A stretch of 64,000 nucleotides of DNA. Source: Planctomycetaceae bacterium (GTDB lineage Bacteria; Planctomycetota; Planctomycetia; Planctomycetales; Planctomycetaceae). The stretch covers positions 1 to 64,000 of the forward strand of contig JADZEF010000238.1 of NCBI GenBank assembly GCA_020850695.1. The letters are read 5' to 3'. Below the pieces are notes generated by a model, which saw only the letters and a program-made list of their open reading frames with translations, did no database searches and had not been told where the DNA came from. A program made the position numbers and the translations under genes. Positions 4,341-55,419 of the stretch are shown one piece after another (the first letter of the stretch is position 1; each line of letters starts with the position of its first letter).

Positions 4341-4368
4341 TGTCCGGCCTGGGAAGGCCGGACTACGG
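4341..4368. repeat. Fragment of palindromic repeat family C
   Basis: TGTCCGGCCT-GG-GAAGGCCGGACTACGG is a single hairpin that resembles the arm of the 119-bp family C elements at 20334 and 48969. It lies immediately upstream of the rRNA methylase gene. An upstream GTG start would translate it, which is why the later ATG was preferred for that gene. Confidence 0.6.
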
Positions 4369-9965: not shown

Positions 9966-9995
9966 CGTAGCACGGGCATGAGTGCCCGTGCTACG
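9966..9995. repeat. REP palindrome, family A (single)
   Basis: This is a perfect 13-bp-arm hairpin (CGTAGCACGGGCA, TGAG loop, TGCCCGTGCTACG) between the dehydrogenase and MFS genes. It is the same sequence that brackets the RAYT transposase at 24.2-25.1 kb. Only one palindrome is present here. Confidence 0.9.
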
Positions 9996-20333: not shown

Positions 20334-20452
20334 TTAGAGCGCGTTACCGCCGCGTTTTCCGTAGTCCGGCCTTCCAAGGCCGGACAAAACCTCGCGCCCG
20401 GCCTTGGAAGGCCAGGCTACGAAGCGGAACACCCGCCGGTAATGCGCCATAA
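20334..20452. repeat. 119-bp palindromic repeat, family C, copy 1
   Basis: This differs at one position from the copy at 48969-49087. It contains two inverted hairpin arms, GTAGTCCGGCCTTCCAAGGCCGGAC and GCCCGGCCTTGGAAGGCCAGGCTAC, that together form a larger palindrome flanked by unique-looking ends (TTAGAGCGCG ... GCGCCATAA). The near identity implies recent copying. The rest of the 20286-20574 gap holds no gene. Confidence 0.92.
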
Positions 20453-24201: not shown

Positions 24202-24294
24202 CGTAGCACGGGCACTCATGCCCGTGCGAAATGATCAATCAATAGGTAAGTGTCGCATGACAAGCGACGCACGGGCATGAGTGCCCGTGCTACG
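24202..24294. repeat. REPIN of family A, downstream side of the RAYT gene
   Basis: Two inverted REP palindromes (24202-24230 and 24268-24294) with outermost CGTAGCACGGGC and GCCCGTGCTACG are separated by 37 nt. The inward flanks carry GTGCGAAA / CGACGCAC. It lies between the PQQ-propeller start and the end of the transposase gene. Confidence 0.9.
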
Positions 24295-24297
24295 GAA

Positions 24298-24978
24298 TCA
24301 ATTCTCATTCCGAAATCCCCATCCCGCTTTCTCCCACTCGGGATGAATCCACCGTCTCCAACTCTCTTCCCCCGCAAGTCCTGCCTTGCGGGGATTGCGG
24401 CCGATGTACTGAATCACTCGCCACAAGTGCTCTCCATCTCGAATCAGTCGATCGTAGGACTCGTCCTGCCAGACGTCCCCGGATTCCTTGATCGCCAGAT
24501 TGAGATGCCGTGCCGACACGCCTTTGATCGCGCCGATCAGGTCTTCCAGGTCGTGGCCATCGAAGGGGCGCATGGCGAGATGGACATGGTTCGGCATGAT
24601 GGTCCAGCACGAGAGGAAATAGCGATCGTTCTGGAAGTGGTTCAATCTGCCGACGAGATCGTCGACCAACTGACGGTTTCGGAAGTGGCAGTTTCCGAGC
24701 CCCTCATCAAGCCAGGCTTCCACATGGCTCGTCGAAACGCGTTCGAGAGATTCCCAATCCTTCGCCGTATGAGGCGGCGGGTGCTTGCGCTCCCACTCTT
24801 CACGCACTCGCTTGAGATATCGCAGTCTCTCCTGAGGAAGCGAATCGACCAGGCGAAACGTCACAAAGTAAGTGGCTCCATCCTGTCGCCAGTGAGGCAG
24901 ACCGCGTCGATAGACCTTGATAGGACGATCTCGATCAAGGCATTGGAACTGCGGCGGAAGCGGCGGCAGGTTCAGCAT
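24298..24978 (-). CDS. REP-associated tyrosine transposase (RAYT, Y1/IS200-like)
   Basis: A 226-residue single-strand DNA transposase of the RAYT type. The HUH metal motif is in MPNHVHLAM, and the candidate nucleophile Tyr is in IQYIGRNPRKAGL, the conserved Y-x-x-x-NPxxAGL helix. FVTFRLVDSLPQE and WQDESYDRLIR also match the family. RAYTs bind and cut REP hairpins and are thought to spread REPINs. Here the gene is flanked by REPINs of one family on both sides, 24202-24294 and 25003-25138. ATG 24978 is preferred because the upstream frame enters the REP sequence. Confidence 0.93.
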   Translation of the reverse strand: MLNLPPLPPQFQCLDRDRPIKVYRRGLPHWRQDGATYFVTFRLVDSLPQERLRYLKRVREEWERKHPPPHTAKDWESLERVSTSHVEAWLDEGLGNCHFRNRQLVDDLVGRLNHFQNDRYFLSCWTIMPNHVHLAMRPFDGHDLEDLIGAIKGVSARHLNLAIKESGDVWQDESYDRLIRDGEHLWRVIQYIGRNPRKAGLAGEESWRRWIHPEWEKAGWGFRNEN

Positions 24979-25002
24979 GGTGACACTCAGCCCGCTTCGG
25001 CC

Positions 25003-25138
25003 GCAGCACGGGCACTCATGCCCGTGCGAAAAGTCTTCCAATATGTCTTGGTCAAGAAGAGAGTGTTATGTCGCCGCTCGTGCTATTGATCTGACTGCGA
25101 GGCATTTCTTTCGCACGGGCATGAGTGCCCGTGCTACG
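25003..25138. repeat. REPIN of family A, upstream side of the RAYT gene
   Basis: Two inverted copies of the palindrome (25003-25030 and 25112-25138) are separated by 81 nt. They are oriented as in 24202-24294, with CGTAG-type ends outward and TGCGAAA/TTTCGCAC inward. They sit just upstream of the transposase start and just beyond the VCBS gene stop. Confidence 0.9.
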
Positions 25139-28644: not shown

Positions 28645-28751
28645 GGTTCGCGGGAAGAGGAAGCGGCTGATGGGCTCGATTATAGAGAGTGCGCCCTTTC
28701 TCTGCCGTGGACGCAGGGTAACTTTGCGGGAGAGCTCATGCTTCGCATCGT

Positions 28752-28819
28752 GGCACGGGCACTCATGCCCGTGAGTGAGGTGAGTGGAAAGGTTTCGCAC
28801 CGGCATGAGTGCCCGTGAG
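28752..28819. repeat. REPIN of family A
   Basis: Inverted REP pair: GGCACGGGCACTCATGCCCGTGAG (28752-28773) and CGCACCGGCATGAGTGCCCGTGAG (28796-28819). It is shorter and more diverged than the RAYT-flanking pairs (one arm has ACCGG in place of ACGGG). It lies between the DUF1559 gene end and the RluA-type gene start. Confidence 0.85.
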
Positions 28820-48968: not shown

Positions 48969-49087
48969 TTAGAGCGCGTTACCGCCGCGTTTTCCGTAGT
49001 CCGGCCTTCCAAGGCCGGACAAAACCTCGCGCCCGGCCTTGGAAGGCCAGGCTACGAAGCGGAACACCCACCGGTAATGCGCCATAA
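48969..49087. repeat. 119-bp palindromic repeat, family C, copy 2
   Basis: It is identical to 20334-20452 except at one position (ACCCACCGG instead of ACCCGCCGG). It ends 24 nt before the murG stop region. Confidence 0.92.
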
Positions 49088-55226: not shown

Positions 55227-55419
55227 CGTAGCACGGGCACTCCTGCCCGTGCGAAAAAGCCTTCAAGAAGCGATTGGCTCGACTCAGTCTGAGTGCACAG
55301 GATATCCGCAGGTTATCCTGGCTCACTGAAACTGAGCCGATGCAAGCCGAGACCTGATTTCAAAGAGCATCGACGAACGTCGCGAAGCGTTTCACACGGG
55401 CAGGAGTGCCCGTGCTACG
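55227..55419. repeat. REPIN of family A, next to ftr
   Basis: Inverted palindromes at 55227-55256 (CGTAGCACGGGCACTCCTGCCCGTGCGAAAA) and 55390-55419 (TTTCACACGGGCAGGAGTGCCCGTGCTACG) are separated by about 135 nt. The loop base differs from other family A copies (CTC/GAG with CC/GG centre). It occupies most of the gap between ftr and the cyclo-ligase gene. Confidence 0.9.

Follow-up and report, generated by a model that had tools for sequence, protein, structure and literature searches.

A RAYT transposase and its REPINs in a planctomycete genome, many of them nested in elements bounded by terminal inverted repeats

The window considered here, a stretch of 64,000 nucleotides of a contig from a Planctomycetaceae bacterium (assembly of 8.6 Mb in 440 contigs, with a contamination estimate of 4.9%), very probably harbours a REPtron, in which a RAYT, a domesticated HUH transposase of the single-strand type, would act on a population of REPINs. 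This verdict is based on the bracketing of the gene by inverted pairs of a palindrome, the copy number of that palindrome, the existence of one palindrome per RAYT and the sharing of REPs by sister RAYTs. In addition, many REPINs are found inside small composite elements with terminal inverted repeats (TIRs), in which the REPs are far better conserved than the sequence around them.

The RAYT gene lies on the minus strand (24298..24978, read 24978->24298) and consists of 226 codons, in agreement with the 226-residue product originally predicted. Its product displays the motifs NHVH (130-133), WQ (170-171), D176/R180 and a predicted catalytic tyrosine, Y191, within YIGRNP. It matches Y1_Tnp in Pfam (4e-6) and NF047646 REP_Tyr_transpos in NCBIfam (1.1e-19), the latter with 70.7 bits, below a curated cut-off of 80 bits that is a naming threshold and no biological feature. 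Because NF047646 is its best family match yet falls under this cut-off, the gene is, judging from its sequence, an outlying member of the RAYT family. An AlphaFold2 model, for which the input was the protein and 35 relatives (pLDDT 91.2), ranks 4er8, the E. coli TnpA-REP in complex with a REP hairpin, first both in Foldseek (E 1.9e-6) and in VIA-align (Z 14.6, 146 residues aligned, rmsd 3.0, 18% identity), whereas the IS608 and ISDra2 transposases score lower in VIA-align (Z 11.4 and below). The modelled HUH-Y1 fold is thus nearest to that of TnpA-REP. No variation is seen in either alignment of RAYT relatives at N130, H131, H133, W170 and D176; Q171, R180, Y191 and N195 do not vary in the first, and R180, Y191 and N195 are present in at least 90% of the sequences of the second. 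Profile matches, fold and HUH/WQ/Tyr motifs therefore all bear out the original identification of the gene as a RAYT.

On either side of this gene there is an inverted pair of a palindrome (REP A) made of a GTAG foot, a stem CACGGGCA and a CTCA loop, with sequence and coordinates as first described. Downstream (3') of the gene, the outer arm (24203..24226, plus strand) faces its partner head-to-head (24270..24293, minus strand; 63 nt start to start; single-stranded DNA fold z -10.8). Upstream (5'), an arm in which the foot is GCAG instead of GTAG (25003..25026, plus strand) is paired with one that has kept GTAG (25114..25137, minus strand; 107 nt start to start; fold z -8.7). The other palindromes predicted in the window are present as well, with qualifications. 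The single one at 9967..9994 has GTAG feet at both ends, a ‘double foot’ that would be expected if the spacer of a REP pair were deleted, and its upstream flank is similar to the flank of A-type TIRs. The pair at 28750..28817 is a decayed, 44-nt REPIN A left from a TIR composite, and its second arm is mutated (CACCGGCA..., foot lost). The pair at 55228..55418 is a variant with a CTCC instead of a CTCA loop, a spacing of 163 nt and no TIR. A second REP family, B, had been missed, with three copies in the window (4343, 20365 and 49000): a single REP with a GTAG foot (4343..4366, minus strand) and two near-perfect composites in which a REPIN B (20361-20420 and 48996-49055) is enclosed by TIRs (20334..20452 and 48969..49087). 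The motif GCACGGGC occurs 20 times in the window, versus 6.0 +/- 2.5 in shuffles, and 20 was reached in 0 of 100 shuffles.

A genome-wide count, the check that had been proposed, showed that palindrome A is an abundant, dispersed repeat of about 150-170 copies rather than being absent elsewhere. When up to 2 mismatches are allowed, the full palindrome is matched 169 times in forward and 172 times in reverse orientation; both counts refer to one set of roughly 170 sites, read on either strand, and the reversed control gives 0. With a GTAG foot and up to one mismatch, there are 150 copies. In the 1.79 Mb from which pair statistics were drawn, a sample chosen around REP sites, the stem CACGGGCA-N4-TGCCCGTG is found at 125 perfect, 19 one-mismatch and 4 two-mismatch sites, with no excess over the control at three mismatches. 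REPs are paired head-to-head in 132 of 150 cases, and 3 of the 18 single ones have feet at both ends. All 66 pairs are head-to-head, 64 with GTAG outside and two with a mutated foot; not one tail-to-tail or tandem pair was seen among these or among 34 family B pairs. Measured start to start, the commonest spacing is 44-46 nt, while 11 pairs have arms 60-163 nt apart, and the consensus pair folds as one hairpin (z -12). According to gene calls from a home-made codon-usage caller, 95% of REP copies are intergenic (5 of 84 family A places and 1 of 57 family B places are within genes, for a coding density of 79%), with a preference for convergent over divergent gaps (35:10 versus 44:85 by bases, p 7e-9). 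Such a placement has already been described for REPs elsewhere (PMC3733652).

Two other RAYTs are encoded in this genome, on contigs C9 (52% identical to the window protein) and C323 (35% identical), and each of the three has its own palindrome, in about 150-170, about 150 and 4 copies, respectively. There is one full-length RAYT gene per REP family. The C9 gene is flanked by GTAG-TCCGGCCTTCCAAGGCCGGA, which defines family B (79 + 74 sites, up to 2 mismatches allowed); its 34 pairs are all head-to-head with a spacing mode of 32, and the palindrome was found in none of the genomes of 58 relatives (up to 2 mismatches). The C323 gene (L065, G000:C323:19063-20079) is flanked by GTGG-CACGCGAG...CTCGCGTG, which in a search without mismatches occurs only at its own four flanking sites, making this a REPtron without dispersed REPs. 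Another Y1 transposase gene of the same genome (L309, G000:C339) has CCGGGGGC-AAC-GCCCCCGG palindromes on both sides.

In many copies, conservation extends to the sequence outside the REPINs. The family A composite measures about 142 bp and has terminal inverted repeats, GGCTTTGTCGGAAAACTC-GATCTGGAC-[GTAG REP ... REP CTAC]-GAATGAATCGGCACTCCGTATCCG-GAGTTTTCCGACAAAGCC, and that of family B about 115 bp, GCGCGTTACCGCCGCGTTTTCC-[REPIN]-GAAGCGGAACACCCGCCGGTAATGCGCC; the position of the REPIN within its composite is constant. Scored against random positions, TIR flanks are recognisable on 30 of 66 A pairs (about 45%) and 20 of 34 B pairs (60%). Spacing is nearly fixed in these pairs (40-46 nt, mostly 45, in A; 32 nt with one exception in B), while it varies in bare pairs. 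Of 24 hits in a genome-wide search for A TIRs, 23 adjoin a REP, and no transposase bounded by A or B TIRs was seen in the genome-wide TIR search, which returned mostly REP composites. Between some B-type TIRs there is another long palindrome instead (GGGTGGCCGGGTCTGAGGC...), or no sequence that can be recognised, and the carrier therefore exists independently of this REPIN. The GGGTGGCCGGGTCTGAGGC palindrome was seen inside B TIRs at three loci (L290, L293 and L283, on G000 contigs C113, C132 and C148) and it also abuts an A composite in L140. In a genome of another genus, G022, a related REPIN lies within a TIR element of 129-131 bp; 5 of 6 elements with two TIRs are flanked there by identical 3-bp sequences (TCA/TCA or TGA/TGA), a TNA-type target-site duplication that presumably points to an IS5-type DDE transposase. 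For the family A composites of the window's genome, TIRs are clear and the candidate target duplication is TA at most. Since REPINs lie within TIR elements, they would also spread as passengers. The prediction of a dispersal system thus holds as far as a dispersed RAYT/REPIN population goes, but the RAYT would not be the only agent of dispersal, given that TIR composites hold about half of the pairs.

These composites also reveal an unequal rate of decay. Choosing family A elements by their TIRs rather than by their REPs (17 distinct elements) avoids an ascertainment bias towards intact REPs, and divergence from the consensus is then 8/544 (1.5%) in REP stems versus 23.5% in spacers and 18.9% in flanks (p 3e-34), the spacer figures allowing for REPINs that lie inverted in their carrier. 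In the 11 elements with both flanks recognisable, the values are 1.7%, 23.6% and 12.4%, respectively (p 6e-15). Ascertainment by REPs can thus be rejected as the cause of stem conservation. Different spacer subfamilies could inflate the apparent divergence of spacers, but the same contrast is seen in flanks. Loops and the exact letters of REPs are as conserved as stems, and pairs with no remaining flank similarity, which were chosen by their REPs, have 0.6-1.0% stem mismatches. In family B, arms of the T-type, the type beside the family B RAYT, are 2.9% divergent versus 12.9% for those of the C-type (p 6e-5). In family A copies where the orientation of the spacer could be read, it is opposite to that of the carrier flanks in 6 of 18, and in 2 of 12 in the TIR-chosen set, which suggests exchange between the two REPs of a pair. 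Maintenance of REPs in place, through host selection on the exact sequence or through RAYT-driven rewriting, would explain this pattern.

Host-level selection is the most serious competitor of the REPtron reading. According to this scenario, REPs would be kept for a function at transcript 3' ends, in supercoiling or in nucleoid binding, stem conservation would reflect that function and the RAYT would only be their ancient source. This is quite possible, although on balance we lean slightly against it. The intergenic location and the bias for convergent gaps, reminiscent of terminator-like elements, are in accord with it, as is the conservation of stems within decaying carriers. However, REPs would be just as scarce near promoters if inserting there did harm, and the conservation of loops and exact letters along with stems implies that pairing alone is not what is kept. 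The asymmetry of family B also speaks against host selection, in that the C-arm is equally able to pair and nevertheless decays; it favours a role of the RAYT in REP maintenance. One such role might be in-place rewriting, whereby the RAYT would repeatedly convert REP copies to the current master sequence while the surrounding DNA turns over. We regard this as possible but rather doubtful. If it were true, TIR composites would be built-in clocks that make REP uniformity visible, and inversion of the REPIN core (6 of 18) would be a by-product of REP-to-REP strand exchange.

A second alternative is that MITE dispersal is the main source of copies, i.e. that a REPIN was captured once and then spread by a DDE transposase, with only a small share for the RAYT. 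The frequency of TIR flanks in both families, the constant place of the REPIN and the target duplications in G022 all fit. Nevertheless, this is unlikely in view of the 36 A pairs and 14 B pairs that have no TIR, among which are both pairs at the window RAYT, and of the pairs with unrelated spacers of 60-163 nt. The CTCC loop variant is found in 0 of 30 family A pairs with TIRs versus 18 of 36 bare ones, and the one-to-one tie between REP families and RAYTs would be left unexplained.

It is very improbable that the locus is an IS200-like insertion sequence of the ordinary kind, ending in hairpins and with its gene missing from several copies. Such an element would indeed combine an HUH Y1 transposase gene with a hairpin on either side, but there is a single gene copy per REP family, the best fold match is TnpA-REP rather than IS608 or ISDra2, and each side has an inverted pair instead of one subterminal hairpin per end. 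Chance palindromes in GC-rich DNA are ruled out, for although single GCACGGGC octamers do arise by chance, full-length control counts are 0.

The distribution of RAYTs and REPs was surveyed in 170 genomes of the family Planctomycetaceae, this one included (58 genera, one genome per species). With membership defined at E <= 1e-40, the RAYT subfamily is found in 18 of the 170 genomes, spread over 12 of the 58 genera, and genus boundaries are not followed in its tree; the two RAYTs of G165, for example, cluster with those of two other genera. This patchiness and these cross-genus sisters are more in line with horizontal transfer or recurrent loss than with stable vertical maintenance, and the suggestion that the system is vertically kept finds no support. 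As a repeat, palindrome A is in none of the 169 other genomes, although one of them has one site with one mismatch. Only 17 of the 169 carry the subfamily, so that the palindrome is not equally frequent in relatives devoid of such a RAYT. The hairpins that bracket RAYT relatives in other genera are different ones, tagged with GTAG or GTGG and facing outward. Under a strict rule requiring the same tagged hairpin on both sides, 17 of 68 named relatives, mostly PVC bacteria, qualify, versus a mean of 0.02 for flanks combined across loci. REP similarity tracks RAYT similarity over 18 RAYT/REP pairs (rho 0.26; 63/5000 permutations). Of the five REP pairs that are near-identical, four come from RAYTs that are sisters or closest to each other, and two of those REP pairs cross genera, with identical REPs for a RAYT identity of 77-84%. 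Related REPs of the GTAGGACGGGCACTCTTGCCCGTCC and GGACGGGC type are present in G010, G014, G022 and G027, where no relative of the window RAYT was found at E <= 1e-10 except a 34% relative in G014. No cognate RAYT was found for the GTAGGACGGGCACTCTTGCCCGTCC REPs, those inspected in these genomes having other hairpins or none that could be seen. In G014 (L236 952-1085, L232, L233 and L237), GACGGGCACTCTTGCCCGTC REPs are arranged differently from the pairs of the window's genome, in short tandem arrays (period about 29 bp) with inverted copies as caps. In G051:C21 (L049), a RAYT relative is followed not by short REPs but by a perfect inverted repeat of 29 bp with a loop of 8 nt, 61 nt beyond the end of the gene as read along the contig.

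Returning to the REPtron, the most likely mechanism can be outlined. The RAYT would recognise its own REP in single-stranded form, as a GTAG-tagged hairpin, Tyr191 would cut next to the hairpin and the strands would be rejoined. REP pairs might thereby be copied or moved into intergenic sites, and the RAYT may keep the REP sequence uniform. By a second route, REPINs captured in small TIR-bounded elements would spread as MITE-like carriers, presumably moved in trans by a DDE transposase. Carrier ends would then decay and the REPs inside stay intact.

This system might be informative on why REPs persist and remain uniform in genomes, for which insertion followed by decay, host selection and repair by the RAYT are the candidates, since REPINs within carriers make it possible to tell how old a copy is independently of how far its REPs have diverged. 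Internal controls come from the same genome, in which the three RAYT/REP pairs have reached different stages, with 4, about 150 and about 170 copies. More broadly, PVC-group bacteria contain a large and little-studied set of RAYTs and REPs, in which cross-genus sister RAYTs that share a hairpin should be useful for understanding REP recognition.

Planctomycete REPs were reported in 2013, when GTAG REPs were listed for Rhodopirellula baltica (PMC3733652). The window thus provides a genuine planctomycete RAYT/REPIN system, as predicted, although planctomycete GTAG REPs as such are not new. The system itself is a new member, with a composite-element variant and a REP-specific conservation signal; in open-licence papers, we found no description of REPINs inside TIR elements or of such a signal. 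The presence of several GTAG REP families per genome is shared, as far as published descriptions go, with R. baltica (PMC3733652). With the REPtrons of E. coli and Stenotrophomonas (TnpA-REP, 4er8; PMC8266576), the system shares the HUH-Y1 fold, the WQ/D/R region reading GTAG, a GTAG foot directly at the hairpin and inverted REP pairs around the gene. REP A resembles Stenotrophomonas REPs, being a perfect palindrome with an 8-9 bp stem and a 4-nt loop, without the bulge of E. coli REPs, and the RAYT differs from E. coli TnpA-REP by its low identity to 4er8 (18% over 146 residues), an N-terminal extension and a score under the NF047646 cut-off. Among TnpA-Y1 proteins, subclass 2.7 (Quentin et al. 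2018, PMC6006769) is the nearest, picked by eye from the published motif table and not by its profiles, and has in common [ND]HVH, WQ, a size near 213-226 aa, a long N-terminus and long GT[AG]G REPs, but the Tyr motif is YIGRNP rather than YI[LR][NQ]NP. Finally, as in Pseudomonas fluorescens SBW25 (PMC3116915), REPINs are inverted REP doublets that form one long hairpin, have a fixed spacing mode and are tied to a RAYT, whereas here many copies are nested in TIR-bounded elements and singlets are few (18 of 150 REPs in the sample).
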